A DNA stretch of 64,000 nucleotides from Solirubrobacteraceae bacterium (GTDB lineage Bacteria > Actinomycetota > Thermoleophilia > Solirubrobacterales > Solirubrobacteraceae). The notes under the pieces are model-generated. The model made no database searches. It saw nothing but the letters and a program-made list of their open reading frames with translations, and was not told where the DNA came from. Below, in pieces: positions 31,367-47,528 of the stretch. Numbering within the stretch: position 1 is the stretch's first letter; each line of letters begins with the position of its first letter. The DNA is taken from positions 62,001 through 126,000 of the forward strand of contig JAJCYD010000007.1 of NCBI GenBank assembly GCA_029263125.1, given 5' to 3'. A program made the translations under genes and the position numbers.

Positions 31367-31591
31367 ATGGAGAGGTTGATGGCGGACTGCCGTCGCTTTG
31401 AGAGCGACAGCAACTGCCAGCTGACGATCATCGGGCCGCAGGCCGATGTGGTCGCCGCCGCAGCCCAGCACGCAGCCGCATCGCACGGGCACGAAGACAC
31501 GCCGGAGTTGCGCGAGCAGATACGTAGCATGCTCGAGCCCGAGAGCGCATACGTCGCCGGTGAGCGTGTGCCGGAGCCGTTTCCGACCTGA
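31367..31591 (+). CDS. DUF1059 family small protein
   Basis: This 74-residue protein with the DUF1059 pattern: an N-terminal MADCRRFESDSNCQL, in which two cysteines flank a short strand, a helix AQHAAASHGHEDTPEL, then REQIRSM. An AAGGAGGAACC precedes the ATG at 31367. The function of the family is unknown. It is the last chromosomal gene before the left direct repeat of the island. Confidence 0.75.
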   Translation: MERLMADCRRFESDSNCQLTIIGPQADVVAAAAQHAAASHGHEDTPELREQIRSMLEPESAYVAGERVPEPFPT

Positions 31592-31698
31592 ACCTTCAAC
31601 CGCGCGCGGCCGTGCGAGGTCACGGCCGCGCCGCGCGTCCGCCGGCATCCGATCTGCAGCCCGACCCCGAGACACCGGTTGACGCCGTTCGCCAACCA

Positions 31699-31721
31699 GA
31701 TGTTGGCGGAAATGTTGGCGG
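31699..31721 (+). repeat. Left 23-bp direct repeat of the island (candidate attL)
   Basis: G followed by two copies of ATGTTGGCGG separated by AA. The same 23 bases recur without mismatch at 43034-43056. CGCCAAC at 31690-31696 forms an inverted repeat with the first GTTGGCG, a feature absent at the right copy. An imperfect copy of the ATCCGATCT sequence that lies outside the right repeat also lies outside this one, at about 31647. Confidence 0.7.
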
Positions 31722-31786
31722 GTTTCGCGCGAGCGGCGCCACCGGATGACGAACCAGGCGAGGCGCACGCAAGCGGCCGACCTCGC

Positions 31787-32608: not shown

Positions 32609-33713
32609 TGGCCTTGCCCGCGGCGATGGTGCGCAGAAGCTCCTCGCCCTCGGCCGGCCCGCGACCGGGGGCCGTGAGCAGGTCGGCTGCGACCTGACCG
32701 AGCGCTGCGTAGGTGATGCCGTCGCGTTCCCACGTGTTGTCGAACACGATCGGATTGAACGGCTCGGCGAGGACTACGTTGCCTGCGCTCTCCACCGTCA
32801 CGAGCCCGAGCTCGGATGCGGCCCTGTCGATGTCATCGACATAGGCCATCGCGAGCTTCGTGTCGGCGAACTCGGCGACCAGACGGGCGGCGAGCGAGCC
32901 CGTGACCGCGTAGCGAAACGGCGCGTCTTGCAATCGGGCGAGCAGCCGCTCGATGCCGCGAGGCTCCAGAAACAGGCTCGTCGTGTTGGACTCCGCAAAC
33001 GAGTAGTCCTCGGTCCAGCGCTCGATCAGTCGCGTGCGGTCGACGTCGACAACCGTGCCGCCATCACCCCGCTCGACGACGGCTTCGCGCTCGAGCAGTT
33101 CGAACACGCGGCTGATGGTCCCCAACGACGTCCCGCTGCGCTCGGCGAGCTCGCGAACCTTGACCGGCGGCTCGGCGTCGAACAGCGCTCGCACGACCCG
33201 TGCCGCGGCAACACCCGTCAGTGACCGCAGCCCGCGACGCTCCGGCGCCGGGTCGCGATCGGCACCGGAGTCCGAGACGTACAAGCCGGGCCGCGCCAGC
33301 GCGATGCGAATGTTGCCGGTGGTGTCCGCATAGTTGACGCCACGCCGTGCAAGCTCGTCGCGAACGCGACGCGAGAGAAACCGTCCGGCAACGATCGGCG
33401 GCCCGCGCTCAGGCCCGTCAGCAGGCAGATCCACGGTCAACATCCGCGCCTGATCGAGCACGCCCTGCAGGTCGCGGCCGTCGACGCGCATCTTGGCCTC
33501 CACGGCTACGACACCCCTGGTCCCGTCCGGCGCCGTGACGGTGAGCACGGCGTCGGCGATGCTTCGGCCGACGCGCTCTCCCGCGGCCATGCTCATATCC
33601 CAGCCTTCTGGCAGCCGCTCGCGGAAGGCAGCGTCCAGCGCGCGCAGGATGTCGCTTTCGCGGCGGATTCGGGTGGGGGGTGGCGGTTGCATCGGAGTTG
33701 CGTTCCGTGTCAT
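32601..33713 (-). CDS. AbiEi-like wHTH antitoxin/regulator
   Basis: This protein is about 370 residues. The N-terminal third has a restriction-endonuclease-like look (GVVAVEAKMRVDGRD), and a winged HTH lies near the middle (VKVRELAERSGTSLGTISRVFELLERE). The C-terminal domain contains VTGSLAARLVA and a segment near PFNPIVFDNTW. This is the arrangement of AbiEi_2-type antitoxins that pair with AbiEii nucleotidyltransferases, and the AbiEii-like gene overlaps its end by 8 bp. The start is uncertain (Met at 33713 or 33692). Repeated GCGGAAC sites over and upstream of the start suggest autoregulation. Confidence 0.62.
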   Translation of the reverse strand: MTRNATPMQPPPPTRIRRESDILRALDAAFRERLPEGWDMSMAAGERVGRSIADAVLTVTAPDGTRGVVAVEAKMRVDGRDLQGVLDQARMLTVDLPADGPERGPPIVAGRFLSRRVRDELARRGVNYADTTGNIRIALARPGLYVSDSGADRDPAPERRGLRSLTGVAAARVVRALFDAEPPVKVRELAERSGTSLGTISRVFELLEREAVVERGDGGTVVDVDRTRLIERWTEDYSFAESNTTSLFLEPRGIERLLARLQDAPFRYAVTGSLAARLVAEFADTKLAMAYVDDIDRAASELGLVTVESAGNVVLAEPFNPIVFDNTWERDGITYAALGQVAADLLTAPGRGPAEGEELLRTIAAGKANG

Positions 33714-33818
33714 GCGGAACAGGTCGCGAGAGCGGAACCTGTCCTTGCAAGTCACGTGAGTATAGGTATTCCTGGCCGCTGTTCCAATTCATGCCAGTGT
33801 TCCGCGTACTGCGGAACA
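33702..33818 (-). promoter_or_regulatory. Cluster of GTTCCGC / GCGGAAC repeats at the AbiE-like promoter
   Basis: TGTTCCGC at 33798-33805 and GCGGAACA at 33811-33818 form a perfect inverted repeat with a 5-bp spacer. GTTCCG at 33702-33707 and CGGAAC at 33715-33720 form a second one with a 7-bp spacer, over the start codon. A lone GCGGAAC lies at 33732-33738. AbiEi antitoxins of other systems bind inverted repeats in their own promoter, so these are likely operators. Confidence 0.55.
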
Positions 33819-33837
33819 TCGCTGACCCCGGGAACTC

Positions 33838-34300
33838 GTGGTACGCGCGGACGATGTGCGCATGTACTGCGCAGCAAGGGGCGCGTCAGCGAGCTCCGCT
33901 CGCCTCCGGCGGGATCCGGTAGCCGTCATAGATCGCACCGAAGATCAGCTCCCCCGCTCGAACGCGGAAGTCTTCGTCGTCGAGGAGCGCCTTCAGCAGC
34001 GTCGCCTGGCGCTCGCGATCGCCGCCAACGGCGAGTGCCGCCGATCAGCAGGTTGTCACGTTCGCGCACGAAGTCATCGCGAAGATTTGCTTCGGCCTCG
34101 TCGACGAGGGCGATCACGACGCCGCGCGCGTCGAGCAGCTCTCCGAGCGCATGCACGCAAGCCGCGCGCAGGTGCCTTCGATCGACTACGACCTCAACCC
34201 TGAATCGACGCCGATCGCCCCCGAGGACTTCGCCCGTCCACAGTCGTGCGACCTGCAACCGGAACCGACGCCATCCGACGCAGCCGGGCTCGATCGATGA
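33838..34300 (+). pseudogene. Probable frameshifted small gene before 34297
   Basis: From about 34022 a plus-strand frame with high third-position GC (QQVVTFAHEVIAKICFGL and onward) runs to TGA 34298-34300, and the next gene's ATG overlaps that stop. No ATG, GTG or TTG opens this frame upstream until 34151. A different plus frame from 33838 (EVFVVEERLQQRRLALAI) looks coding up to about 34040, so a single frameshift would join them. An alternative reading is on the minus strand, where 33886-34044 encodes an equally natural tail (LLKALLDDEDFRVRAGEL) with its own stop. I cannot decide which is original. Confidence 0.35.
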
Positions 34301-34776
34301 GCAACGGCCGCCCACCACGACGCGTCGCGCTCACGCTCGCCGTCGATGAGCGAGCGGCGCTGCGGGCCATCGCCGTGCGCAGGGGCGAACCTGAAGCGAC
34401 GACCGCTGCGCGCTTCGTGCGCGCCGGCCTGGCTGGCGACGGCGCCGAGCTCGACGAGCCGCCGCAGCGCCGCCGCGGACCGAAGTCCCCGCCACGCCGT
34501 GAGCCGAGGGCCGGCGACGGATGCCCGTGGCTTCCGGCCAGTGAGCACAACACCGCGGTCGCCCGGCTGCGCGACCGCTACCCGAGTGACCTGCGCCACG
34601 TCCCCAACCACCTGGGCGAGGACCGCGCACTCGCCGAGCGGATCGCCGCCTTGAGCGTCTGGCGCGCCGAGATCGACGCCGGCCTGCACCGTGACCCGCG
34701 CGTCGAGCTCGCGTTCAGCGACGAGCTCGCGCGCACCTCGCGCTGGCTCGAGGAGCGTCGAAGGCGGACCCGGTGA
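34297..34776 (+). CDS. Hypothetical island protein with RHH-like N-terminus
   Basis: This 159-residue basic protein. The first 45 residues (RRVALTLAVDERAALRAIAVRRG, then a helix) resemble a ribbon-helix-helix DNA-binding element. A basic Pro/Arg-rich linker follows, and a C-terminal helical region contains LGEDRALAERIAALSVWRAEID. Proteins like this often accompany mobilisation or integration modules. The ATG overlaps the stop of the preceding damaged frame. Function unknown. Confidence 0.5.
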   Translation: MSNGRPPRRVALTLAVDERAALRAIAVRRGEPEATTAARFVRAGLAGDGAELDEPPQRRRGPKSPPRREPRAGDGCPWLPASEHNTAVARLRDRYPSDLRHVPNHLGEDRALAERIAALSVWRAEIDAGLHRDPRVELAFSDELARTSRWLEERRRRTR

Positions 34777-34886
34777 CCGCGTCACAGCGCGCAACAGTCG
34801 CACACCGTGCATCTAGTCTGTCCTGGCCGTTTGTCCGTGCGCGCCTGCCGGCGACGGACGGGCGCGCAACTGCGACGCAGTGCGGG

Positions 34887-35075
34887 TCAGTCGCCCTCGG
34901 TGTCGGTTGCAAGGTGCACGAAGCGCGGGTCGCAGACCAGTGCGAGGCACAGCGCGGTGATGTCGCGACGGTCGTGGTCGTCGCGGGGCAGCGCCTCGAT
35001 CTGCGGGGCGAGATACCAGCGTCGGGCGCCGACGATCGCCACCGGCTCCCCACGCCGAATCAGCATATGGCCCAT
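34887..35075 (-). CDS. Hypothetical small island protein (62 aa)
   Basis: A 62-codon frame with normal composition: MGHMLIRRGEPVAIVGARRW, then YLAPQIEALPRDDHDRRDIT and ALCLALVCDP near the end. It lies 51 bp upstream of the sigma-like gene on the other side of the stop-start gap, in the same direction. No recognisable family. A shadow frame cannot be excluded. Confidence 0.42.
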   Translation of the reverse strand: MGHMLIRRGEPVAIVGARRWYLAPQIEALPRDDHDRRDITALCLALVCDPRFVHLATDTEGD

Positions 35076-35126
35076 GCCGCCGTAGGCGCCGAGGGGGCGA
35101 GATTCGCCCCCTCGGATGCGCCGCGC

Positions 35127-35672
35127 TCAGTCGCGCCTGCGGTTCGCGAGCTGCAGCCGTGCCTTGTAGATCACCCCACGCGCCCGCGCAGTCGTGATGT
35201 CGTTGCGGGCCGCGATCTCCGTTGCGTTGAAGCCGGCGACTTGGAGCAGCAGCATCTCGCGCCGGCGCGGGTGCAGCCATTCGAGCGCCGCGAGCGTGTC
35301 GAGCAGCTCGTCGCGATCAATGCCGTTGCGGCGCGCGGTGTAGCGGCGCGCGTTGGTCAGCGCCGCGAGGTCGTCACCGTGCGCGTGTCGCGCGCACCGG
35401 GCGTGCAGTCGCCATGCCTCGCGCGTGGCGACCGTCACGAGCCAGGCGAAGACGGACTCACGCCGTGGCCGGTGGCACAGCAGCTGCAGCCATGCGAACG
35501 AGCACGCGTCCTCGATGTTCGCCTCGCTGGTGCGGACCGCGGCGCCGACGACGCGACGCAGCTTGTCAGCGTGGGCGGCGTAGAGGCGCTCCTCGTCGCC
35601 GAGCAGTTCGAGCTTGGCCGGCGCCGCGCTGCCCCGGCGGCTGGTGGGCGGTTCGTGGCGGTTGCTGGACAT
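35127..35672 (-). CDS. ECF-like RNA polymerase sigma factor
   Basis: This 181-residue protein has a sigma region 2-like helix set (LYAAHADKLRRVVGAAVR, then IEDACSFAWLQLL and VFAWLVTVATREAWRLH). Region 4 has an HTH (LHPRRREMLLLQVAGFNATEIAARNDI, then TTARARGVIYKARLQL). The start Met at 35672 gives a normal ECF length; the longer open frame upstream crosses the hairpin-rich region and is excluded. No anti-sigma gene adjoins it. It is divergent from the integrase with 231 bp between, so it may control excision or island genes. Confidence 0.7.
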   Translation of the reverse strand: MSSNRHEPPTSRRGSAAPAKLELLGDEERLYAAHADKLRRVVGAAVRTSEANIEDACSFAWLQLLCHRPRRESVFAWLVTVATREAWRLHARCARHAHGDDLAALTNARRYTARRNGIDRDELLDTLAALEWLHPRRREMLLLQVAGFNATEIAARNDITTARARGVIYKARLQLANRRRD

Positions 35673-35706
35673 GGCCGCCCATGAGCACGCACGCGTGGCG
35701 GGTGAC

Positions 35707-35775
35707 AAGGTGCGCCCGTCAGGGGCCGGTGCATGCCGGCGCGAAGCGCGCACCTTGCGCCCGCCTACGCGGGCG
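35707..35775. repeat. Nested inverted repeats between sigma-like gene and integrase
   Basis: AAGGTGCGC at 35707-35715 is the reverse complement of GCGCACCTT at 35748-35756. Inside it GCCGG and CCGGC flank TGCATG. Next to it CGCCCGC at 35758-35764 pairs exactly with GCGGGCG at 35769-35775 around the loop CTAC. Three adjacent hairpins between divergent genes suggest a regulatory or recombination/replication site. No known consensus fits. Confidence 0.55.
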
Positions 35776-35903
35776 TGCTGGGCTGCGCCATGCTCCGGCG
35801 ACCAGCCACGAACCGCCGACGGCGGGCCGGGGGCGAATCTGACCGGCTTGCCGCCTATTGCTGACATGCGCCCACTACCTCCCTCTGACCGCCGGACCAC
35901 CCG

Positions 35904-37007
35904 ATGAGCGTCCAACGCCGAGCCCGCGCCGGCCGGCGCACCGTCTGGCAGGTCACGTGGCGCGACCCCGATGGGCGCCAGCGTGCCGAGAGCTACCCGA
36001 CCCGCCGCCTCGCCGAGGCCCGCGACAGCGAGCTACGCGACCTACGCTGGCAGGGCAAGCTCGACGAGGCCGACGCCGGCGCCGAGCCGCTCTACGACGC
36101 GGCCGACGCCTGGTGGACCGACCACGTCGAACCGAACCTCGCGCGCTCGACGATCCTCAGCTACGTCCACGTGCTCGACCACCATCTGCTGCCGCGCCTC
36201 GGCGAGACGCCGATCCGCGACATCAGCCCGGCGCATGTCGTCGCGCTGCAGCGCGAACTGCGCGACGCCGGTGTCGGCACCGCGATGAGCCACCGCATCC
36301 TGATGGTCTTGAGCGGGATCATGCGCCACGCCGTGCTGCGCGGGCGACTGGACCGCAACCCAGTCCAGCCGGTGCGCGTGCCGCTGCCCAAGCGCGTCCG
36401 CGCGATCCGGCCGCTCCCGCCCGCGAGCGTCGAGCGCATGCGGCGCGCCCTGCTCGATTCCGACGACCTCGAAAGCGCGACGCTCGTGAGCCTGATGGCG
36501 TACGCCGGGCTGCGGCCGGGCGAGGCGACCGCGCTCGCGTGGGAGCACGTCGGCGCGCGCACGCTGCTCGTCGAGCAGGCGAGCAGCGGTGATGGTGGGA
36601 CGGCGAAGGGGACGAAGACCGGCGCGATCCGCACCGTGCGGCTGCTGGCGCCGCTCGTCGACGACCTCGCGGCCTGGCGATCAAGCAGCGCCCGAGACGG
36701 CGGCCCTCTGTTTCCGCGCCGCGACGGCACCGCCTGGACGATGACCGACTACCGCAACTGGCGCCGGCGCCGCTTTGACCCGGCCGCGGAGACCGCCGAA
36801 CTCGACGGCGTGCGGCCGTACGACCTGCGCCACTCGTTCGCGAGCCTGATGATCCAGGCCGGCTACTCGTCGGTGGAGCTCGCCGCCGAGCTCGGGCACG
36901 CGCCGACGCTCACGTTGAACACGTACGCGCACGTCTTCAGCGAGTTCGCACGGGGTGAGCGCGTCGATCCTGAGCAGCTCATTGAGCAGATACGGGCGTC
37001 GTCGTAG
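35904..37007 (+). CDS. int: Tyrosine recombinase / integrase
   Basis: This 367-residue phage-type integrase. The N-terminus is an AP2-like arm-binding region (RTVWQVTWRDPDGRQR), followed by a SAM-like core-binding domain (about 65-150). The catalytic domain has Arg in AYAGLRPGEATAL, the H-x-x-R box in YDLRHSFASL, His in LGHAP and the nucleophilic Tyr in NTYAHVF. All key residues are present, so it looks active. It is the only integrase in the island and should act on the 23-bp repeats, although it lies 4.2 kb from one and 6 kb from the other. Confidence 0.92.
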   Translation: MSVQRRARAGRRTVWQVTWRDPDGRQRAESYPTRRLAEARDSELRDLRWQGKLDEADAGAEPLYDAADAWWTDHVEPNLARSTILSYVHVLDHHLLPRLGETPIRDISPAHVVALQRELRDAGVGTAMSHRILMVLSGIMRHAVLRGRLDRNPVQPVRVPLPKRVRAIRPLPPASVERMRRALLDSDDLESATLVSLMAYAGLRPGEATALAWEHVGARTLLVEQASSGDGGTAKGTKTGAIRTVRLLAPLVDDLAAWRSSSARDGGPLFPRRDGTAWTMTDYRNWRRRRFDPAAETAELDGVRPYDLRHSFASLMIQAGYSSVELAAELGHAPTLTLNTYAHVFSEFARGERVDPEQLIEQIRASS

Positions 37008-37162
37008 CCGGGTCATACCGAGTGCAGCGCCAGCGAGACACGAAGAGAGCGTGTTCCCGAGTGACGGCGGAGCACTGCAAACGTCGAGACGGCGCTCTGC
37101 GCCGAGCGCGTGAACTGTCCATAAGCGCCGCATGCGGCGGCGGGTGATCGTTGGACGTTGTT

Positions 37163-38851
37163 TCAACCAATCGGCAACTGCGTCTTCGATACGAGCGAGG
37201 CCACGTGGCTCCGGCCCTGGAGGTAGGCGACGGCTATACCCACGCTCTGGCTCCGTGCGGTGAGTGCCCGCTGAGTCGTCTTGTCCAGGCCGTGAATCCA
37301 GTGCAGACCAACCGCGTAACCGCGAAGCACCTCGGGATTGTGCTCCCTTGAGACATCCGACTTGATCCAGTCGCGGTCGGCGGGTCGCCCTCCTCTCAAC
37401 ATCACGACCGCGGCGATGGCTCGAAGGAACTCGGGCTCGTTGCGATCCTTGACACGACGTGACGCCTCATCGGCCCAGCGTGCCGGGAGCGTGCCAGGAT
37501 GCTCGAGCATCGCTGCGAACAGCCAAGTCGAGAGGTACGAGGACTGGCATCGAGCAGGATCACCGAGGAAGCCTGCCAGGCTCTCAACGACGCGCGGCCG
37601 GGTGATGAATGGCCGCAGATAGGCCGCCACGATCCTCGAGACGGGCGCGAGATCTTCCAAGCGCCTGAGAACGAGCGTCAGCGTGCTGCTCTCGCGGAGC
37701 TTTGTGAGTCGCCAGAGACTGAACTTCGCATGGCGCTCATTAATGCCAGCTTCGGCCTTCAGCGCGTTCCGCAGAATCGTCTTGAGCGCCTTCCTGGCGG
37801 CCGTAAAGCTCTTCGCGTTCGTCAAGTACGCGACACGATCAAGATCGGCGTCGTCATCGAGATCCGCTCGGGCCGCTTTTGCGTGCAACAACTGGGTCTT
37901 GGCTGCACTCACCAGTAGACCGCGCGCCCGCGTCTCCTGCTGAAACTTGCGAATTGCCTTGTATCCGTCCTCCTTTGTATCGACGACGATGCGGATGTCG
38001 TCCATGTAGCGCGAGTAGCGCCAGCCTGCATGCAGCATCGCTCGGTCCACGGGAGCTAGGTACAGGTTTCCGAGCACCCGCGACGCATTTGGACCCTGAG
38101 GGAGGCCTATGCCTTGGTCAGCTCCCCAGGACTTGAGGACGTCGCGCATCACGTTCAAGGTGTTGGCATCGATGTTGAGCGCCTCTATGTCCGCGAGTAG
38201 TCCGCGGTGCGGCACAGTGTCGAAATAAGCCGTAAGGTCGGTCTTGACTAGCCAAGGGTCGCTCGTTTCCGCAAGTTGCGCACGCACGAAGCGACGCCAG
38301 GCTACCCACTGCCTCGCAGGGTGCTTCGTGAAGAAGCGCGGTGCCTCGGACAGCCGCGACGAGAAGATGCTCTCGGCCATGAGTGCGTCAACACGGTCCG
38401 CGAATGAGGCCACGGCCGCCTGGAACGCGACGCGATCGTGCAACGACAAGAGCGTCCCCAGTCGCGTAAGCATTAGTGACTTATCAATCTCGACGACCCT
38501 GCTTGATCCTGGACCCGCCCGGTCGAACACCGCCGCCGCGCGTGCGAGCAGCCCGGCGGTGTCGGTGAGAACGTCCTCGTGCTGGAGGACGTCTGGAACC
38601 CAAAGATCCTGTTTGAGATCCGTAGCCCGCACATGCTCGAGGGCACGGTCAAGATCAACGGTCATACGCCGCGACTGCCGGCGTGAGCGCGGATGGGCGT
38701 TGGGCAGCGCCTGCGCGTCAATCAGCCATTGTCTGCCGCTCTTTCGAGCGGCGATCCGCCCCTCCTTCGCCATACGGCGGGCGGTCGCGGGCGAAACGCG
38801 GAGTCGAACCGCCGCCTCCTCGACCGTCAGGTATTCATCCGTAGCGCTCAT
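37163..38851 (-). CDS. Reverse transcriptase with N-terminal excisionase-type HTH
   Basis: This 562-residue protein. Residues 6-50 form a MerR/excisionase-like HTH (LTVEEAAVRLRVSPATARRMAKEGRI, then RQWLI). The RT domain has motif A as VKTDLTAYFDTVPHRGLL, motif B as LPQGPNASRVLGNLYLAP and the catalytic box Y283-M-D-D286. A helical C-terminal region of about 270 residues follows, with no maturase or HNH nuclease, so it is neither a typical group II intron RT nor a retron RT. It best fits the diverse unknown-group/defence RTs. A GTG 11 codons upstream (38884) is an alternative start. It lies 210 bp downstream of the ubiquitin-like operon on the same strand. Confidence 0.85.
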   Translation of the reverse strand: MSATDEYLTVEEAAVRLRVSPATARRMAKEGRIAARKSGRQWLIDAQALPNAHPRSRRQSRRMTVDLDRALEHVRATDLKQDLWVPDVLQHEDVLTDTAGLLARAAAVFDRAGPGSSRVVEIDKSLMLTRLGTLLSLHDRVAFQAAVASFADRVDALMAESIFSSRLSEAPRFFTKHPARQWVAWRRFVRAQLAETSDPWLVKTDLTAYFDTVPHRGLLADIEALNIDANTLNVMRDVLKSWGADQGIGLPQGPNASRVLGNLYLAPVDRAMLHAGWRYSRYMDDIRIVVDTKEDGYKAIRKFQQETRARGLLVSAAKTQLLHAKAARADLDDDADLDRVAYLTNAKSFTAARKALKTILRNALKAEAGINERHAKFSLWRLTKLRESSTLTLVLRRLEDLAPVSRIVAAYLRPFITRPRVVESLAGFLGDPARCQSSYLSTWLFAAMLEHPGTLPARWADEASRRVKDRNEPEFLRAIAAVVMLRGGRPADRDWIKSDVSREHNPEVLRGYAVGLHWIHGLDKTTQRALTARSQSVGIAVAYLQGRSHVASLVSKTQLPIG

Positions 38852-38877
38852 AGTTGCGCAAAAGCGCTCATTGAGCG
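38843..38877 (-). promoter_or_regulatory. AGCGCTCAT repeats over the RT start
   Basis: AGCGCTCAT occurs at 38843-38851 and 38863-38871, exactly 20 bp (about two helical turns) apart, and the inverted TGAGCG follows at 38872-38877. The repeats cover the RT start codon. They are plausible binding sites for the HTH domain fused to the RT, giving autoregulation. Confidence 0.5.
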
Positions 38878-38912
38878 TACTCACCGCGGACTACCCGGAC
38901 CTGTATCGGCGA

Positions 38913-38930
38913 CCGAGCCGCGAGGCTCGG
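38913..38930. other. GCGA-capped hairpin between DUF6527 and RT genes
   Basis: CCGAGCC (38913-38919) and GGCTCGG (38924-38930) enclose the loop GCGA (TCGC on the minus transcript). It lies in the 210-bp gap of the minus-strand gene set and could end the ubiquitin-like operon or be part of a structured RNA used by the RT. There is no T-tract. Confidence 0.4.
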
Positions 38931-39094
38931 AGCACTCCGCCAGATGTCCGTCGGCCAGACGCAAGCGCCGCCCTTCGCGCGCACAGGAGCAGTGAGGGCA
39001 ACCGTGTTCTCGCCGGGCCCAGACATCGACGCGCTGTTCCGCGCGCGACAAGCGACCGCGGGTCCGAGTTATCAGTCGGCCATGCCGTCGACGC

Positions 39095-39559
39095 TCACCG
39101 TCGTGACAGCCACAAGCGCAACCGGCGCCGCCAACCGGCGGCGGTCTCGTCGGGCCGATGAAACCCCTGCGCGTCGGACTCGTCGAGAACCGGCTTCCGC
39201 GAGCCGTCTTCATAGAACCGCCGCTTGAGTTCGAGGTCGACGGCGCGATTGGCGTGGATCTTGTCCTTCGACCAGGCGCCTGCCCAGTGCACGCGACTGT
39301 GCTCGATCCAGTAGTGCGACCGGCACGGAAAACTCCAGTTGCCGACCGAGCGGCTGAGACTCACCGTCTCGCCGTCGTAGGCCAGGTGCCAGTCGGTCGG
39401 CGTGAGCGGCGTGATGACGCGCTGTCCGCAGCCGCACAGGCAGCTGTGGACGACCGTCGCGTAGTGCATCGAGATGTAGAGCGTGTTCGGCTCAAGCTGC
39501 TCGGGGACGAACTCAACGAATCGGTGTTCGATGAGCTGCGCGCGCAGCGGCCCCCTCAT
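39095..39559 (-). CDS. DUF6527 family protein of a ubiquitin-like operon
   Basis: This 154-residue protein with the DUF6527 features: an N-terminal strand region (RFVEFVPEQLEPNTLYIS), a cysteine cluster C40-L-C42-G-C44-G in HSCLCGCG, then the SRSVGNWSFPCRSHYWI block with C79 and H82. The paired Cys/His groups suggest a metal site. Genes of this family sit in bacterial ubiquitin-like operons, where a processing or deconjugating role has been proposed. Its ATG overlaps the E1-like stop (ATGA), so it belongs to the same operon. The last 25 residues are Arg/Trp-rich. Confidence 0.78.
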   Translation of the reverse strand: MRGPLRAQLIEHRFVEFVPEQLEPNTLYISMHYATVVHSCLCGCGQRVITPLTPTDWHLAYDGETVSLSRSVGNWSFPCRSHYWIEHSRVHWAGAWSKDKIHANRAVDLELKRRFYEDGSRKPVLDESDAQGFHRPDETAAGWRRRLRLWLSRR

Positions 39560-40857
39560 GCTGCCGCCCGGTTCCTCTCGTCGCCGCCCTCGCCCGCCAC
39601 GACCCTCGAGGCGCTGGTGTCCTCGACCGCGGTCCGGGCGTCGGGCGCGACCGCCTCTCGCGGGTCGGGGGTGCCGCCGTCGCGGGCCGTGTCCTCGTTG
39701 TGGATGTAGTTACCGTCGATCTCGTAGACGCTGTGATGCTCGCCGTCGAGGTCGACGTAGAAGCCGCAGAGCTTCTTCCACTTGATGGTCGCCAGCGCCG
39801 CGTTGAGCATGTTGAGGTCGGCGATCTGGACGTTGTTGCGGTAATCGTTGGCAGGATCGTCGGCGGCGGCGAACGGGATTCGGTCGTACTTCCAGACGTG
39901 ATCGCGCTTGTGCGGCGTGCTGGTCGTGACGCGCACCTGCCCGCCAAGTGCATCGTCGGCCGAGTAGATCCCCATGCCGACGTCCGTGAACCGCATCCCG
40001 GCCGCCTCGAGCGAATCGACGATCAGGCGCCGCGCCGCGCCGTCATCGACCGCGATGAAAACGAAGTCCATCTCCCCGAGCTCATCGACGTTGGAGCCAT
40101 CGACGTAGACCGCGTGGGCCACGATCTGTCGGCGCATCGGCGAGTAGCTGTCCTTGTAGTAGTCGACCTTGTTGACCTTCGCGCTCAGATCGGACACCGA
40201 CGCCGCCCCGGGCGATCGGAACGCGTTGTGCTGGAGCAACACGTCGCCGTCGTACAAGTGAATCTCGGCGACCGGCGTCTTAGCGACGAGGTCGAGGATG
40301 TAGGCGCCGGTGCCGCCGAGGCCGACGATCGCGACCTTATGGCCCCGCAGTCGTGCGGTGGCGACGCTGACGCCGGCGCGGCTCGACGCGCTCTCGACGT
40401 ACTCGAAGACGGAATCATCGTCGCTCGAGACGACACCATGCGTAATGGCGGTCGCGGCTGACTCGATCGCCTGTGCTGGCCCGGAGAGGATGCTGACGTA
40501 CGTCGTCATCTTCTCGTAGTAGTCGCCATAGCCGGCGGCTGGCTTGTGGGAGAACAGGTGCTGCGAGACCAGCCCTTCCAGGAGGTTCTGCCCGCCGCTG
40601 GCGATGATGTCGATCGGCTTCCCGGTCTCGTCGTGAGGCGCGCCGCCCGTGAAGTGCACGGTGTGGTCCTGCGGCCGCTCGGCAACGTCGCCGGCAAGCG
40701 TGAGACTGGAGGCAAGGGTCCCGCGGAGGACCCGGGCCTGCTCGTCGACGTAGGGGACGGAGTGCAGGAGCAGGTAGCCGTTTCGGATCGCGATCTCGTA
40801 GCCGTCGTCGACGAGGCGCTTGAGGTCGGGACTACGATTTATCGGTCGCCGTGACAT
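39556..40857 (-). CDS. E1-like ThiF protein with N-terminal DUF6791 domain
   Basis: This 433-residue adenylating enzyme. Residues 1-165 match the DUF6791 type (LVDDGYEIAIRNGYLLLHSVPY, and DHTVHFTGG). The E1/ThiF Rossmann domain follows: nucleotide loop GLGGTGAY (179-186), YDGDVLLQHNAFRSPG with the D and R that act on ATP, and a FIAVDDGAARR segment. The only cysteine is Cys364 (KKLCGFY), a candidate thioester site. It should adenylate the C-terminus of the upstream modifier. Its start lies inside the end of the modifier gene (26-bp overlap), and its stop overlaps the DUF6527 start. Confidence 0.82.
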   Translation of the reverse strand: MSRRPINRSPDLKRLVDDGYEIAIRNGYLLLHSVPYVDEQARVLRGTLASSLTLAGDVAERPQDHTVHFTGGAPHDETGKPIDIIASGGQNLLEGLVSQHLFSHKPAAGYGDYYEKMTTYVSILSGPAQAIESAATAITHGVVSSDDDSVFEYVESASSRAGVSVATARLRGHKVAIVGLGGTGAYILDLVAKTPVAEIHLYDGDVLLQHNAFRSPGAASVSDLSAKVNKVDYYKDSYSPMRRQIVAHAVYVDGSNVDELGEMDFVFIAVDDGAARRLIVDSLEAAGMRFTDVGMGIYSADDALGGQVRVTTSTPHKRDHVWKYDRIPFAAADDPANDYRNNVQIADLNMLNAALATIKWKKLCGFYVDLDGEHHSVYEIDGNYIHNEDTARDGGTPDPREAVAPDARTAVEDTSASRVVAGEGGDERNRAAA

Positions 40858-41128
40858 TGAAGACCATCCCTTTCTTCACCTTCACGGTGGCGCCCTTCAC
40901 CAGCGAGCCCTGCGGGGACTCGTCGGCGCCCCGGCGGTAGGTGACGGTGACCATCCAGTTCTCGCCCTCCGGCGGGTTGCCGTCGTAGGCGAGGTCGACC
41001 ACCTGTTCGAAGGTGATCTCCTTCGTGGTGATGGTCTTCTCCTGCGCGTTAACGACGATCGTCGTTTCGTGCTCGTGATCCGGGGACTGACCCGGCTTGT
41101 CCTTGTACTTGGTTCCTTCGGGCTGCAT
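40832..41128 (-). CDS. Ubiquitin-like modifier (multiubiquitin-type beta-grasp)
   Basis: This 98-residue protein. After a charged leader of about 20 residues, one beta-grasp unit is readable: TTIVVNAQEKTITTKEITFEQVVDLAY, a PPEGENWMVTVTYRRG hairpin, then GSLVKGATVKVKKGMVFNVT. This matches the multiubiquitin domain of bacterial ubiquitin-like operons, here as a single unit. The C-terminus is TATDKS, without the Gly-Gly of ubiquitin. A GGAGGA lies seven bases before the ATG. It is the first gene of the operon, with the E1-like gene overlapping its end. Confidence 0.82.
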   Translation of the reverse strand: MQPEGTKYKDKPGQSPDHEHETTIVVNAQEKTITTKEITFEQVVDLAYDGNPPEGENWMVTVTYRRGADESPQGSLVKGATVKVKKGMVFNVTATDKS

Positions 41129-41137
41129 CTCTCGATC

Positions 41138-41210
41138 CTCCGATCAGTCGGGGCGTCCTTCTCCTGCCAGAGTAGTACAAGAGTATATACCAAGTTGGTG
41201 TAGGATTCCA
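41138..41210 (-). promoter_or_regulatory. Divergent control region with palindrome ACCAAGTTGGT
   Basis: On the minus strand TATACT (41182-41187) is a good -10 box for the ubiquitin-like operon, and GGAGGA precedes its start. An 11-bp perfect palindrome ACCAAGTTGGT at 41189-41199 lies immediately upstream of that box and also in front of higB on the other strand. It may be a HigA operator that influences both directions. Confidence 0.5.
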
Positions 41211-41270
41211 TAGTGTCCGTCCGAACGCATAACCTAATCGGTACAGGCGTGCTTCTCGCGCCTCTTCGCG

Positions 41271-41603
41271 ATGAACGTCTCCTTCAGCACCACCAAGCTC
41301 CGGAAGCTCTGCACCTTCGATCGCGATCTCCAGCGCCAGCTGGGGCCCGGCGGCGCGAAGAAGGCGAAGAGCCATCTGGCGTCGATCGCGGCCGCCGAGA
41401 CGCTCGCCGACTTCCGACATCTGCCCGGGCACTGTCACGAGCTGGGGGCAGACCGTGCTGGCCAGCTAGCGCTGAACCTGCCGGATGGCAAGCGGTTGGT
41501 ATTCGAGCCGGCCGACGACCCGCCTCCTACTAAGCCGGATGGCGGCCTGGACTGGGCGGCTGTCCGTTCCGTCCGGATCCTTGAGATAGGCGACTACCAC
41601 TGA
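41271..41603 (+). CDS. higB: HigB-type RelE superfamily toxin
   Basis: This 110-residue protein of the HigB ('system killer') group of RelE-fold mRNA interferases: SFSTTKLRKLCTFDRDLQRQLGPGGAKKAK at the start, ADFRHLPGHCHELGADRAGQLAL in the middle, and SVRILEIGDYH at the end, as is usual. Such toxins cut mRNA on the ribosome. The stop overlaps a following ATG (TGATG), and the HigA-type antitoxin is encoded immediately downstream, toxin first, the order typical of higBA. Confidence 0.82.
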   Translation: MNVSFSTTKLRKLCTFDRDLQRQLGPGGAKKAKSHLASIAAAETLADFRHLPGHCHELGADRAGQLALNLPDGKRLVFEPADDPPPTKPDGGLDWAAVRSVRILEIGDYH

Positions 41604-41626
41604 TGACACCCGTACGGAGGGATGAG

Positions 41627-42709
41627 ATGACCCAAAACGCAACGACGTTTCGGCCAGATTGGGCCAGCCCGCCGGGCGACACGCTTGCCGACCTGTTGGA
41701 CGAGCGACGCATGACGCAGACGGAGCTGGCCGAGCGCCTCGGCGTAACCCTCAAGCACGTCAACCGAGTGATCAAGGGGGCAGCGACCATCTCGCCGGAC
41801 CTTGCTTTGGGACTCGAGAAGGTCTTTGGCGCTTCGGCAGCCTTTTGGATGACGCGCGAAGCGCACTACCAGGCCGCCCGGGCTCGGCACGAGCAGCGAC
41901 AGAGCTTTGCGAAGGCGGTCGGGTGGGCAAAACAGTTCCCCATCAAAGAGCTTCGGAAGCGAGGGATCTTGCCGCGGGGAAGCGACGGCCCGGAACTCGT
42001 TGAGCAAGTACTCGGCTTCCTCGGAATCGCGCACCCGGACCAATGGACGGAGCCGCAGGTCGCCTATCGAAAGTCCCAGAAGTTCGATAGCGACCAGTTC
42101 GCGCTCGCGACTTGGTTGCGCGAAGGTGAATTGCAGGCCACCGACGTCGACTGCGCGCCTTACGACGAGGCGCGCTTCCGCGAAGTGCTCCAGCAGGCAC
42201 GATCACTTACGCGGCTCGCGCCTGAGGCATGGTGGCCTGAGCTCCAAGCCCGCTGTGCTTCAGCAGGAGTTGCCGTTGTTCTCGTCGATGTATACGCCGG
42301 CGCCAAAGCAAACGGCGCGACTCGCTGGCTTGCGCCAGACAAGGCTTTGATCCAGCTCAGCCTGCGGTACGCCTGGGAGGACATCTTCTGGTTCAGCTTC
42401 TTCCACGAGGCTGGGCACGTGGTCCTACACAGGAAGAAAGACGTCTTCGTCGAGGTGGCGGGGAGGGACAAGTCGGCCCACCCACGTGAGCAGCAACTCG
42501 AAGCTGGGGCAGATCGGTTCGCCGCAAAGACCCTTATCCCACCTCCACATGACAGACGCCTACTTGGCCTGAAGCTACGGGACGTGGACGCCTTCGCTCA
42601 AGTGCTGGACATCGCCCCAGCGATCGTCGTCGGCCGGATGCACCATGAGGGGATTCTCCCCTGGAACCAGGGCAACGCATACCGCAGGCGTCTCAAGTTC
42701 GTCGACTGA
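41627..42709 (+). CDS. higA: HigA antitoxin fused to ImmA/IrrE metallopeptidase domain
   Basis: This 360-residue protein. Residues 15-70 form a HigA-type HTH (LADLLDERRMTQTELAERL, then VTLKHVNRVIKGAATISPDL, and FGASAAFWM). The C-terminal half is an ImmA/IrrE-like zinc peptidase with H260-E-A-G-H264. The ATG at 41627 follows GGAGGG and is preferred to the ATG at 41603 that overlaps the higB stop. HTH-ImmA fusions act as protease-controlled repressors in mobile elements. Here it probably neutralises HigB and represses the locus; how the protease is triggered is unknown. Confidence 0.85.
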   Translation: MTQNATTFRPDWASPPGDTLADLLDERRMTQTELAERLGVTLKHVNRVIKGAATISPDLALGLEKVFGASAAFWMTREAHYQAARARHEQRQSFAKAVGWAKQFPIKELRKRGILPRGSDGPELVEQVLGFLGIAHPDQWTEPQVAYRKSQKFDSDQFALATWLREGELQATDVDCAPYDEARFREVLQQARSLTRLAPEAWWPELQARCASAGVAVVLVDVYAGAKANGATRWLAPDKALIQLSLRYAWEDIFWFSFFHEAGHVVLHRKKDVFVEVAGRDKSAHPREQQLEAGADRFAAKTLIPPPHDRRLLGLKLRDVDAFAQVLDIAPAIVVGRMHHEGILPWNQGNAYRRRLKFVD

Positions 42710-43033
42710 GCGCGCGGTCCGCCGGAAGCCAAAGTGCGACTTGAGGCCGTTGTCGCCGCGCTATCGCTCTCGCGTGAAAACGGTCATTTTCGGCCGACCG
42801 ACCGATGGATCCACACCTGCCTCGAGCGACAATCGGCCTTCCATCGCGAGCCCTCCCCGTCCGTAACGCGACGAGCAAAGCAAGTCCGCTGTGCCCAGCG
42901 CGCTCAGCGAAGGGGGCGGTGGCAGTGCAGGTTCGCTGCGCAGGATGCGCACGGCGGCGAGCGCCTTGGGGCCGGGGATTAGCTGCTGCGCCCGGGAGGT
43001 ACCCATGCGCCCAGGCTGTCTCGTTCCCGCACC
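42710..43033. other. Gene-free right end of the island
   Basis: About 320 bases after higA hold no frame with protein-like composition on either strand and no RNA I recognise. The stretch ends in the right 23-bp repeat. Confidence 0.5.
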
Positions 43034-43056
43034 GATGTTGGCGGAAATGTTGGCGG
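43034..43056 (+). repeat. Right 23-bp direct repeat of the island (candidate attR)
   Basis: Identical over 23 bases to 31699-31721: G, then ATGTTGGCGG twice with AA between. Outside it, between the repeat and the tRNA-Thr gene, lies ATCCGATCTCCAACCCC, which resembles a sequence outside the left repeat. Confidence 0.7.
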
Positions 43057-43097
43057 ATGGCCGTATCCGATCTCCAACCCCAGACCCCGGTGGAAAC

Positions 43098-43123
43098 GAA
43101 AGCCCCGCAAATGCGGTGCTTTC
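43098..43123 (-). terminator. Hairpin downstream of tRNA-Thr
   Basis: On the minus strand, five bases after the tRNA, GAAAGC pairs with GCTTTC and inner CCGC with GCGG around ATTT, followed by a short T-rich stretch (CGTTTCC). This is a probable intrinsic terminator of the tRNA transcript. Confidence 0.6.
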
Positions 43124-43128
43124 GCCAG

Positions 43129-43201
43129 AGCCGACGAGCGGATTCGAACCGCTGACCCCTTCATTACGAGTGAAGTGCTCTACCAGCTGAGCTACGTCGG
43201 C
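43129..43201 (-). tRNA. tRNA-Thr (anticodon CGT)
   Basis: The minus strand folds into a full cloverleaf: acceptor GCCGACG with CGTCGGC, D arm GCTC-AGCTGGTA-GAGC, anticodon stem CTTCA / TGAAG with loop CTCGTAA, five-base variable region and T arm AGCGG-TTCGAAT-CCGCT. The anticodon CGT reads ACG (Thr). CCA is not encoded. The 3' end faces the island. Confidence 0.95.
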
Positions 43202-43240
43202 AACGACCGACCATCCTATTGGGCCGTTGCCGGGGGGCCT

Positions 43241-44233
43241 TCAGGCTTGCACGGACGGCGCGCGCGCGCCGTCGCGTGCCTCGATCTGATCGATCTTGGC
43301 GAGCAGGTGCTCGGCCTGGCGTAGGGAGGCGGCGTCGATCAGGCGGCCGTCCAGCGACACGGCGCCGCGGCCCTCCTTGGCGGCGTCCTGCATCGCTTGG
43401 ATGATCCGTCGCGTGCGGTTCTGAAGCGCCTCGCTGGGCGTGTAGACCTCGTGCGCGAGCTCGACCTGGCTGGGGTGGATCGCCCACTTGCCCTCGAAGC
43501 CCATGATCGCGGCCCGGCGCGCTGACGTCTTGAAGCCCTCGGGGTCGTTGAAGTCGCCGAACGGGCCGTCGATCGGGCGCAGGCCGTTGGCTCGGCACGC
43601 CACCGCGATGCGCGACAGCGGGTAGTGCCACTGGTCGCCCCAATGACGGTCCCGCGCGCCCTCGTGATCGGGGTCGGTCAGCACCGAGTAGCCGTGCTCG
43701 GAGCCGCCGATCGTCGCCGTGTGGCTCTGGATCGACGCGGAGTAGTCGGCGACGCCGAAGACCATCGCCTCCATGCGCTCGGGGCACTCGCGCGCAATCT
43801 CGTCGACGTTGAACATGCCCTGCGCGGTCTCGATCAGGACGGCGATGCCGAGGCGCTCGGTCAGGCCGCGGCCGTCCTCGATCTGCGTCAGCAGCGTTGC
43901 GATCAGATGGACGTCGGCGGCGCACGAGGCCTTCGGGATCAGGATCGTGCTCAGGTGCTCGCCGGCGGCCTCGACGACGTCGACGACGTCGCGATAGCAC
44001 CAGTGCGTGTCCAGGCCGTTGATCCGCAGCGAGATCGAGGCTTGACCCCAGTCCTGCTCGGAGAGCGCTGCGATGACGTTCGCGCGCGCCTGCTCCTTGT
44101 CGGCCGGAGCGACGGCGTCCTCGAGGTCGAGCATGACGTAGTCCGCTCCGACCGCGGGAGCCTTCCCGAGCATGCGCAGGTTGCTGCCCGGCACGCAGAG
44201 CTCGCTGCGGTGGAGTCGAGGTGCTGGCGCCAT
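43241..44233 (-). CDS. HpcH/HpaI-CitE family lyase, malyl-CoA lyase-like
   Basis: This 330-residue Mg-dependent C-C lyase. Typical segments are RSELCVPGSNLRML at the start, MLDLEDAVAPADKEQAR with the metal-binding acidic pair, LRINGLDTHWCY, VLIETAQGMFNVDEIA and FEGKWAIHPSQVELA. The long insert with IGGSEHGYSVLTD fits L-malyl-CoA / beta-methylmalyl-CoA lyase. It would interconvert malyl-CoA with acetyl-CoA plus glyoxylate. The Met at 44233 gives the normal start; a longer upstream frame crosses the divergent aminotransferase gene. The two genes start 118 bp apart. Confidence 0.82.
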   Translation of the reverse strand: MAPAPRLHRSELCVPGSNLRMLGKAPAVGADYVMLDLEDAVAPADKEQARANVIAALSEQDWGQASISLRINGLDTHWCYRDVVDVVEAAGEHLSTILIPKASCAADVHLIATLLTQIEDGRGLTERLGIAVLIETAQGMFNVDEIARECPERMEAMVFGVADYSASIQSHTATIGGSEHGYSVLTDPDHEGARDRHWGDQWHYPLSRIAVACRANGLRPIDGPFGDFNDPEGFKTSARRAAIMGFEGKWAIHPSQVELAHEVYTPSEALQNRTRRIIQAMQDAAKEGRGAVSLDGRLIDAASLRQAEHLLAKIDQIEARDGARAPSVQA

Positions 44234-44351
44234 GAACGTCCTCTCATCGGTAAATCGACAGAACCGTGTGAAACCTATCCAACCGCCGGGCCGGCCAGCA
44301 CGAGGTTGGCGCTGTTGACGAGACCGGTCGTCCTCTGCCACCGTGGAAGGC

Positions 44352-45494
44352 ATGACGACATCCGCTGCGGCGCCCCTCGCCCCGACCGAACGCCTGCTGT
44401 GCGGCCCCGGGCCGACGAACGTCGACCCGATCGCGCTGGCCGCGATGCAGCGGCCGATCCTCGGCCATCTCGATCCCGAGCTGCAGGACATCCTCACCGA
44501 GGTCGTGCGGATGCTGCGCATCGTCTACAGGGCCCCCGACGGCCTCGTCCTGCCCCTCCAGGCGACGGGCACGAGCGGCATGGAGACGGGCCTGGTCAAC
44601 CTCACCCAGCCGGGCGACACGGTGATCGTCGGCGCCTCGGGGTACTTCGGCCGGCGCCTGATCGAGATCGCCAAGCGAGCCGGCTGCGACGTCGTCGAGG
44701 TCGTCGAGGACTGGGGCGTGCACGTCCCCAACGAGCGGCTCCTCGCGGCCGCTGAGGAGCACCCGGACGCCGTGCTGATGGCCGTCGTCCACGGCGAGAC
44801 GTCGACGGGCAGCCTGCATCCGCTGGCCGAGCTCGGCGCCGCCATGAAGGACTCCAGCACGCTGCTGATGGCCGACTGCGTGACGACGCTCGGCGGAACG
44901 GAGCTCGACATCGGTGGCTGGGGCATCGACTACGCGTACTCCTGCACGCAGAAGTGCGTGGGCTCGGCGCCCGGCATGTCCCCGATCGCCGTGTCGGAGG
45001 CCGCGATCGAGCGCTTCGATGCTCGCCGGATACCGGCGCCGTTCGCGTTCGACTTCAACCTGCTCAAGAAGTACTGGGTCGACCGGCCGACCGTCTACCA
45101 CCACACCGCGCCGATCCTGCACATCTACGCGCTCTACGAGGTCCTGCGCGCCACGCTCGACGAGGGCGTGCAGGAGCGCTGCGCGCGCCACGTGGCCGCC
45201 GGCACGCACCTCCAGGAGCGCGTGCGCGTCGCCGGCATGCGCCTGATCGCCGAGCCCGGGCACCAGCTTCCGCAACTCAGCGCGATCCGGGTTCCCGACG
45301 GCGTCGACGGCAAGGCCGTCGCGTCCGAGTTGCTCAGCGAGCACGGCATCGAGGTCGGCGGCGGGCTGCCGGGCGCTCCGCCGATGTGGCGGATCGGCCT
45401 GATGGGCCCGAACGCCACGACGCAGACCGCCGATCGCGTGCTCGACGCGCTGCTGGGCGTGATGCAGCGGCACGGCGCGGCGGTCTCGGCGTAG
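44352..45494 (+). CDS. Alanine/serine-glyoxylate aminotransferase family protein
   Basis: This 380-residue class V PLP aminotransferase: LLCGPGPTNVDPIALAAM at the start, QATGTSGMETGLVNL binding the cofactor, LMADCVTTLGGTELDIGGWGIDY, and the PLP lysine in CTQKCVGSAPGMSPIAVS. It would turn glyoxylate into glycine with serine or alanine as donor. The ATG at 44352 was chosen, with a GTG three codons earlier as an alternative. It converges on the glycerate kinase gene. With that enzyme and the malyl-CoA-lyase-like protein it fits glyoxylate assimilation. Confidence 0.88.
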   Translation: MTTSAAAPLAPTERLLCGPGPTNVDPIALAAMQRPILGHLDPELQDILTEVVRMLRIVYRAPDGLVLPLQATGTSGMETGLVNLTQPGDTVIVGASGYFGRRLIEIAKRAGCDVVEVVEDWGVHVPNERLLAAAEEHPDAVLMAVVHGETSTGSLHPLAELGAAMKDSSTLLMADCVTTLGGTELDIGGWGIDYAYSCTQKCVGSAPGMSPIAVSEAAIERFDARRIPAPFAFDFNLLKKYWVDRPTVYHHTAPILHIYALYEVLRATLDEGVQERCARHVAAGTHLQERVRVAGMRLIAEPGHQLPQLSAIRVPDGVDGKAVASELLSEHGIEVGGGLPGAPPMWRIGLMGPNATTQTADRVLDALLGVMQRHGAAVSA

Positions 45495-45519
45495 CCCGCG
45501 CCGCGCCGGCTGGCCGAAC

Positions 45520-46494
45520 TCAGCGCACAGCGGCCCCGATCGCGCTTCCCGCCGCCTCGATCTCCTCCAGCGTCGAGGCCGTCCACAGCCGCTCGATCCC
45601 CTCGCCGGCCCACGCCCGCCGCGCCACGGTGCTCGAGCCGGCGACGGCGTGCAGCGGCACGCCGGCCGCCCGTGCCCGACGGGCGAGCTCGCCGACGATC
45701 TTGCCGCCGAAGCTCTGCTCGTCGATGCGGCCCTCTCCGGCGACGACGAGCGCCGCCGCCCGCATGCGCTCGTCGACGCGCAGGGCGTCGAGCACCGCCG
45801 GCGCGCCGGGCCGCAGCTCGGCGTCCAACGCCGCCCACAGCCCGCCCGACAGCCCGCCCGCGCAGCCGGTGGCGGGCACGCCGCGCGGGTCGCGGGGAAG
45901 CTCCTCGGCGAAGCGCGCGAGCCGGTCCTCCAGGCGAGCGACGAGCGCGGCGTCGGCGCCCTTCTGGGGTCCGAAGACGCTCGGGGCGTCCTCGAAGGGC
46001 CAGCGCACGTCGCACAGCACCGCGAGTCGTGCGCCACCAAGCCCGCCGCCGGCGGCGATCGCCTCGATCGCGCCGCGCCCGCCGTCGGTCGTCGCGCTGC
46101 CACCGGCGGCGACGAGGATCTCGTGCGCGCCCTCGCGGACCGCGGCGAGGATCAGCTCGCCGGTGCCGCGCGTGGATGCCGCCCAGGCGTCGCGCTCGTG
46201 CGCGGCGACGCGGGCCAGGCCGGACGCCTGCGCCATCTCCACGATCGCCGTGTCGCCGACCATCGCGAAGCGGCAATCGACCGGCCGGCCGAGCGGATCG
46301 CCCGCGCGACACGCCACGAACCGGCCTCCGAGCGCGTCCGCAAGCAGCTCCATCGTGCCCTCGCCGCCATCGGCCACGGGGCAGCGGTCGGCCTGCAGCC
46401 CGGCCCGTTCCAGGCCGCGCGCCAGGGCGTCGGCGACCGTCGTCGCGTCGAACGTGCCCTTGAAGGAGTCAGGTGCGACGAGCACGCGGGTCAC
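45520..46494 (-). CDS. Glycerate kinase (GarK/GlxK family)
   Basis: This 324-residue kinase phosphorylates D-glycerate, normally to 2-phosphoglycerate. Family marks are LVAPDSFKGTFDA at the N-terminus, ADGGEGTMELL, AAGGSATTDGGRG (GSATxDGG), VFGPQKGAD, and GEGRIDEQSFGGKI near the end. The GTG at 46494 is the start; it is 43 bp from the divergent PHP gene. It is slightly shorter than the usual 370-380 residues. It completes a route from glyoxylate through serine and hydroxypyruvate to glycolysis, although hydroxypyruvate reductase is not in the window. Confidence 0.9.
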   Translation of the reverse strand: MTRVLVAPDSFKGTFDATTVADALARGLERAGLQADRCPVADGGEGTMELLADALGGRFVACRAGDPLGRPVDCRFAMVGDTAIVEMAQASGLARVAAHERDAWAASTRGTGELILAAVREGAHEILVAAGGSATTDGGRGAIEAIAAGGGLGGARLAVLCDVRWPFEDAPSVFGPQKGADAALVARLEDRLARFAEELPRDPRGVPATGCAGGLSGGLWAALDAELRPGAPAVLDALRVDERMRAAALVVAGEGRIDEQSFGGKIVGELARRARAAGVPLHAVAGSSTVARRAWAGEGIERLWTASTLEEIEAAGSAIGAAVR

Positions 46495-46537
46495 ACCGGG
46501 AACGCTAACCCGTCGCGATTTCCGAGAAGCTTTCGCT

Positions 46538-47419: not shown

Positions 47420-47528
47420 CAGCACCGCCGGCGAGCACGACGACCGGTCCGGCGACCCTCCCCGGGTGACACCTCAGTCATCGCGTTGTCCCCTGCTGAA
47501 CTGCGATGTCGCGTGAAGATGGCGGGAG

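Follow-up and report, generated by a model that had tools for sequence, protein, structure and literature searches.

Can a bacterial ubiquitin-like operon that encodes neither an E2 nor a JAB peptidase still attach its modifier to a target, and by which chemistry could it do so? This question is raised by three overlapping genes on the minus strand of the 64,000-nt stretch of Solirubrobacteraceae DNA analysed here, which is referred to as the window (Table 1). Reading of the open reading frames placed the genes exactly where a preliminary description of this DNA had put them, with overlaps of 26 nt between the modifier and E1 genes and of 4 nt between the E1 and DUF6527 genes. The protein assignments of that description were likewise borne out. 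The modifier consists of a single unit of the multiubiquitin type, and its homology to the "multi-ubiquitin domain protein" of PDB 9cd2 (6.5e-10, residues 19-98, through to the C-terminus) agrees with the beta-grasp fold proposed for it. The E1-like protein carries DUF6791 (Pfam 2.2e-51) with ThiF (6.5e-10) behind it and matches NCBIfam PRK06153.1-4 with 7.7e-157 and 522 bits. The CxCxC cluster of the DUF6527 protein is real and corresponds to C40, C42 and C44. A search of 38880-41300 for a sigma-70-type promoter gave none, and 41129-41270 contains no exact inverted repeat of at least 6 bases with its copies within 16 bases.

Table 1. Features of the operon and its surroundings (positions in the window).
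Feature	Position	Strand	Evidence
12.2-kb insertion carrying the operon and other cargo	30922-43126 (ends approximate)		Absent from congeners
Tyrosine integrase of the island	35904-37007	+	Pfam Phage_integrase 2.3e-14
UG32-type reverse transcriptase, HTH-fused, of the unknown-group (DRT-like) set	37163-38884	-	PADLOC RT_UG32 4e-176
DUF6527 protein of metal-binding type, 154 aa; H38, C40, C42, C44, C79, H82	39095-39559	-	Pfam 2.6e-21; AF2
E1-like protein, 433 aa; DUF6791 (10-155), then ThiF/E1 adenylation domain; disordered tail 401-433	39556-40857	-	Pfam, NCBIfam, AF2
26-nt two-frame overlap: last modifier residues and stop, E1 start	40832-40857	-	Base-level test
Modifier, single Multi_ubiq beta-grasp unit, 98 aa	40832-41128	-	Pfam Multi_ubiq 1.8e-16, one stretch
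Small protein upstream of the HTH-M78 gene, toxin-like by position only	41271-41603	+	No family match
HTH and ImmA/IrrE (M78) protein, divergent, likely regulator	41603-42709	+	HTH_3 6.6e-9, Peptidase_M78 2.1e-7
tRNA-Thr(CGT) bordering the insertion	43128-43201	-	ARAGORN, Rfam

Relatives of the operon were collected by tblastn, which detected the E1 in 116 of 72,556 plasmid records; DUF6791 was present in 3 of the 396 genomes of the own phylum that were searched, the present genome included. The set of 91 loci used below comprises the window, 10 plasmid loci and the best 80 of 546 genome loci, a choice that is biased toward close relatives. The record titles of these best 80 of 546 genome loci name at least ten phyla, and one of them is that of an archaeal MAG. 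A DUF6527 gene follows the E1 gene in 90 of the 91 loci (88 by pattern, plus L035 and L077, which have a variant cluster, by reading; L038 is without it). Since the set of modifier, DUF6791-ThiF protein and DUF6527 protein recurs at 90 other loci, it is not a product of chance. One scan of viral contigs with the E1 gave three pattern matches, with no relative among them. The absence of a separate E2 and of a JAB peptidase, which had been noted before, is confirmed: JAB and Prok-E2_E were not detected by tblastn in positions 31000-48000 of the window, where the positive controls were found, nor, using seven JAB and seven Prok-E2_E domains, in any of the 91 loci (control loci found). One JAB-like match by HMM only (L084, E 0.003) lies about 5 kb downstream. 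Thus, any transfer chemistry must sit in the three proteins themselves.

As a set these genes are not new, but represent the JAB-less, DUF6791-containing branch of operons of type 6e, or Bub-like operons. According to the accessible part of the 2006 paper by Iyer, Burroughs and Aravind (PMC1779556), type 6e operons are sporadic and mobile and encode a Ubl of one to three units, a metal-binding protein Y and an E1 with an N-terminal JAB, which a subset replaces by an uncharacterized domain X. A one-unit Ubl, a distinct E1 N-terminal domain and DUF6527 in the place of protein Y are all present here, and from the same part of the paper no difference in make-up from the domain X version emerges. 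We infer that DUF6791 is domain X. A serine end, a 26-nt overlap or a missing E1 cysteine are not mentioned for type 6e in that part of the text (PMC1779556). The branch shares with Bub (Citrobacter BubABCD, PDB 9ea4-9eav) the Multi_ubiq modifier, the E1 fold, the DUF6527 protein and the regulator types. In contrast to the branch, Bub-type loci have a JAB fused to the E1, a Prok-E2_E protein and modifiers that mostly end in TEG or are fused to the E2; the JAB-E1 fusion and the Prok-E2_E partner each occur in 0 of the 91 branch loci. Bub operons are named in PMC13373217, the accessible part of which cites Gong 2025 and Ye 2026. PDB 9cd2 (ZDHYS365 multi-ubiquitin domain protein) is matched by the branch modifier profile with 2e-59 and ends in YVTQTDKS; judged by this end it appears to be a member of the JAB-less branch, its chain of 222 aa being longer than the single unit of the window. 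Bil (BilABCD) and Cap2 of type II CBASS are likewise mobile bacterial Ubl/E1 systems, but unlike the branch, Bil has an E1 catalytic cysteine, an E2 and a JAB (PMC11354881, accessible part). Full-text searches by name gave no paper for DUF6791 or DUF6527 and none evidently on the branch, Gong 2025 and Ye 2026 lying outside their scope. We claim no priority for the anatomy of the branch; what is new here is its description at the branch level from 90 relatives, by sequence comparison, covering the serine end, the overlap, the E1 cysteines, the loss of JAB and E2, and the regulator.

The modifier of the window ends in FNVTATDKS followed by the stop codon and has no C-terminal glycine. In the 91-locus set the branch end reads [FLI]-x-[VA]-x-x-T-x-[KRQ]-S with the stop directly after it. 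The terminal residue is serine in 90 of the 91 modifiers, alanine in L054 and glycine in none, and Thr at -4 as well as Lys, Arg or Gln at -2 are found in 91 of 91; the modifier reading frames were picked with a required T..[SA] end, and an unfiltered list for the 90 loci other than the window gave the same frames. Two further loci of the own phylum, outside the 91-locus set, have modifiers ending in RATRKS (L002) and SDTGQS (L003). The C-terminal glycine, a trait of canonical ubiquitin-like conjugation, is therefore absent from the branch modifiers. Ten Ubl loci without DUF6791 served as a contrast set: four of their modifiers end in TEG, one in TTEGGAA, three continue into an E2 domain, and the remaining two end in TGGA (L128) and QSS (L131). 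L131 (3447-5942, Rhizobium leguminosarum pRL4b1) lies outside the branch; there the three-unit modifier stands with a 319-aa ThiF protein and a 110-aa protein that belongs to no Pfam family, and ImmA/IrrE and HTH genes lie upstream.

The end of the modifier gene lies in the overlap with the E1 gene, from which the preliminary description had concluded that the genes form a fixed stoichiometric module. The overlap measures exactly 26 nt in 89 of the 91 loci and also in the two further own-phylum loci (L002, L003; 2/2). In L091 the genes are separated by a gap of 24 nt, and the TDKS end is retained although they do not overlap; L036 is without a standard E1 start at the 26-nt position. At 85 non-redundant loci the two reading frames could be separated base by base. 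The terminal serine codon is TCG in 48 loci, TCA in 21, TCT in 13 and TCC in 2, with GCG (Ala) once, so its third base is free, though each change alters residue 8 of the E1 (Arg 49, His 21, Leu 13, Pro 2). The base forced by Thr(-4), third position 4.3 of the E1 frame, is A in 85 of 85 loci (entropy 0.00), and that forced by Ser(-1), E1 third position 7.3, is T in 84 of 85 (entropy 0.09), as compared to entropies of 0.91-1.86 at the four E1 third positions immediately beyond the overlap. Because of this difference, the test points to selection on the terminal serine and Thr(-4) of the modifier, and a fixed stoichiometric module does not follow from the overlap. A frameshifted fusion of modifier and E1 found no support and was dropped.

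In the E1, G179, G181, G182, G184, D203, D205, N211, R214, K230 and D271 are invariant in all 91 rows of the alignment; in the light of MoeB and ThiF chemistry we take these residues to be the adenylation site. The AF2 model (77 sequences, pLDDT 88.7, pTM 0.83) has the ThiF/E1 fold. In a structure comparison that covered mainly residues 142-396, its best match was Citrobacter BubCD (Z 24.5, rmsd 3.1, 227 aligned residues, 18% identity), followed by ThiF (Z 23.8) and, lower, MccB (Z 22.3), with MoeB also among the closest folds. The E1-like ATP site expected from the preliminary description is therefore predicted to be intact, as in canonical ubiquitin-like conjugation. A catalytic cysteine, another trait of such conjugation, is not found throughout the branch. 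C75 is present in 87 of the 91 E1s, the window having a histidine there, and C364, the only cysteine of the window E1, is a cysteine in 24 of 91. The E1 of an Egibacteraceae MAG (L074, 3181-4359) has no cysteine at all and would be a naturally available protein on which to test activation without a thioester. With no universal cysteine, and none in L074, an E1 thioester cannot, judging from the alignment, be a requirement of the branch. Because the modifier ends in serine and the E1 has no universally kept cysteine, the handling of this tag must differ from that of ubiquitin. Since both the glycine end and the E1 cysteine fail, the operon is not filed here as canonical ubiquitination.

Tyr339 is present in all 91 branch E1s, and a tyrosine is found in 8 of 8 JAB-type E1s. 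A BubCD Y370F mutant is named in a PDB title. Tyr339 was considered as a candidate counterpart of BubCD Tyr370, but hhalign places the latter in a gap. DUF6791 was also considered as an E2/RWD-like domain. Its strand order and a local match of residues 9-35 to Prok-E2_E looked E2-like but were not significant: hhalign gave P 0.028 and a score of 18.6, compared to 12.3 to 13.2 for JAB, DUF6527 and the E1 core, and 60 block-shuffled controls reached 19.8.

H38, C40, C42, C44, C79 and H82 are invariant in 86 of 86 DUF6527 proteins. The underlying alignment (A5) holds 86 of the 88 available proteins, L064 and L074 being omitted, and alignments A6 and A7 are also without near-duplicates. C40, C44, C79 and H82 are the likely four metal ligands, which would leave H38 and C42 as a Cys-His pair beyond them. 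In eight JAB-type operons H38 is found in 0 of 8 and C42 in 5 of 8, so that it is the E2-less branch which holds the extra pair. The AF2 model of DUF6527 (pLDDT 85.1) has no clear match among solved structures (best Foldseek E 0.57; best Z 3.0), which is not proof of a new fold.

The mobile setting proposed for the operon is supported by the 12.2-kb island. At 5 of 5 congener loci examined, the left flank is followed by tRNA-Thr and the insertion is absent; the distance from flank to tRNA lies within 12 nt in L105 and L119 and is 36 nt in L120 and 83 nt in L121, and in L118 the aligned flank stops 1.2 kb earlier. A sixth congener (G419) gave partial tRNA matches only. As att repeats, no shared stretch of at least 8 bases was found between 30850-31300 and 43040-43150, and when the genome was searched with a 28-base piece of the tRNA end, allowing up to 3 mismatches, there was a single occurrence. 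Thus, the evidence for integration at tRNA-Thr is the empty site. To the right of the tRNA, 43202-46558 contains citrate-lyase-like and aminotransferase-like genes; this stretch is elsewhere or missing in G100 and collinear in G421, a second rearrangement at tRNA-Thr. Within the island, the UG32 reverse transcriptase lies on the operon strand about 210 bp downstream of the DUF6527 gene. As it adjoins none of the other operons of the 91-locus set, it represents separate cargo. A two-gene unit at 31787-33755 (minus strand) encodes as its second protein an AbiEi-like protein (AbiEi_2 0.0031, below the cut-off); of 7 genomes of the genus, the present one alone has the protein encoded at 32601-33755.

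The divergent HTH-M78 protein matches PD-Lambda-2_B (7.5e-27) and capP (2.5e-8) in PADLOC and is also matched by an HMM of the upstream neighbours. With this HMM, which was built on those same upstream neighbours, an M78-type protein was counted in 54 of 91 loci; it lies divergently and at most 2.2 kb upstream in 44 of 91, and no locus has one within the same distance on the downstream side. The neighbour in L022 was confirmed as Peptidase_M78 (2.4e-15). The small protein at 41271-41603 has no match in Pfam, NCBIfam or PADLOC, and the pair at 41271-42709 (plus strand) is matched by a HigA-family antitoxin model (3.7e-15), so that it may form a defence or toxin-antitoxin unit in addition to being a regulator. 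Among Bub operons, 219 of 544 adjoin CapW or CapH+CapP (PMC13373217, accessible part). On plasmids, UvrD-helicase genes recur near the operon (L004, L006, L008, L011, L013), and in L006 (Leptolyngbya boryana plasmid) a caspase-family gene lies downstream of it. Acinetobacter johnsonii pXBB1-8 (NZ_CP010358) carries a DUF6791-type and a JAB/E2-type ubiquitin-like operon on one plasmid (L011, L140), both near Tn7-like transposition genes.

Overall, we favour the reading that the operon encodes a mobile, stress-regulated Ubl pathway in which the modifier is adenylated at its serine end and transferred without an E1 thioester or an E2; we put the probability of this reading at about 0.5. The pathway is probably defensive. 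By analogy to CapH+CapP, the divergent HTH-ImmA/IrrE regulator would hold the operon off and release it upon damage or infection. An E1 dimer would then bind the short, ready-made T-x-T-x-[KRQ]-S tail of the modifier and adenylate its terminal serine at the carboxylate, in the manner of MccB acting on a peptide with a non-glycine end. MccB is a ThiF-fold enzyme like the branch E1 but has no Ubl, its substrate being a heptapeptide. As there is neither a universal E1 cysteine nor an E2, the activated modifier would be passed straight to a nucleophile on the target or on the complex. DUF6791 may stand in for the missing E2/JAB side, although this role is a guess, and the zinc-type DUF6527 protein may act as target adaptor or transfer partner; together they would supply positioning and target choice. 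Several points run counter to this scheme. A Lys-Ser end is bulkier than Gly-Gly, we know of no ubiquitin-type E1 that takes a Lys-Ser end, and the modifier of L054 ends in alanine. The invariant serine could also serve binding instead of ligation, and the invariant DUF6527 cysteines beyond the four-ligand metal site would allow a cysteine-borne step.

The latter would be realised if the E1 adenylates the modifier and DUF6527, with C42 next to H38, acts as cysteine carrier and substitute for E2 and E3. Such a relay would fit with H38 and C42 being kept by all 86 aligned branch proteins, as opposed to 0/8 and 5/8 in the E2-bearing JAB-type operons, with C40, C44, C79 and H82 sufficing as metal ligands; nevertheless, we regard it as unlikely, since C40-x-C-x-C44 resembles one compact metal site, C42 is also found in E2-bearing operons, and a limited fold comparison gave no match to an E2 or E3 (best Z 3.0). 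About equally improbable to us is that no conjugation takes place and the E1, with ATP and the modifier tail bound, forms a complex that works as a switch or sensor, the overlap serving only to hold the proteins together. The lack of a glycine end, of a universal E1 cysteine, and of an E2 or JAB peptidase would fit such a complex, but the fully conserved adenylation residues and free C-terminus argue for chemistry at the terminal carboxylate.

Chemistry of another kind, namely a ThiS/MoaD-type sulfur carrier or an MccB-like reaction that joins a nucleotide or small molecule to the modifier C-terminus, is suggested by ThiF, MoeB and MccB being among the closest E1 folds and by the precedent of MccB for a non-glycine end. 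The modifier has no Gly-Gly end, and no metabolic gene is prominent in the 25 most recurrent neighbour clusters, only some of which are identified; we thus consider this very unlikely. Finally, the chemistry may be as proposed, with the operon serving mobile elements in a general DNA-damage or addiction role instead of in phage defence. We take this seriously, at somewhat less than even odds: the operon is carried on plasmids and islands, the regulator class responds to DNA damage, and for Bub, whose protection against phages is not demonstrated, the authors leave a general DNA-damage role open (PMC13373217, accessible part). The UG32 reverse transcriptase and the PD-Lambda-2_B-like and AbiEi-like neighbours, in contrast, fit a defence island.

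For the family, the serine-end reading would mean that a widespread branch conjugates its modifier via a C-terminal serine, requiring neither a catalytic cysteine in the E1 nor an E2, a tentative proposal that we consider possible, with the odds leaning against it. If true, this would be a third activation chemistry beside the Gly-thioester of ubiquitin and the Gln/Glu-phosphate of Pup, and trypsin would leave a single serine (+87 Da) on the acceptor residue. Operons of this type were described as early as 2006, and the accessible literature offers no tested mechanism for the branch. Its modifiers end in serine throughout, JAB and E2 are lost and no E1 cysteine is universal, so that the branch offers a sharp test of whether ubiquitin-like tagging requires a glycine end and a thioester, and with three genes it is among the smaller candidates for full reconstitution.
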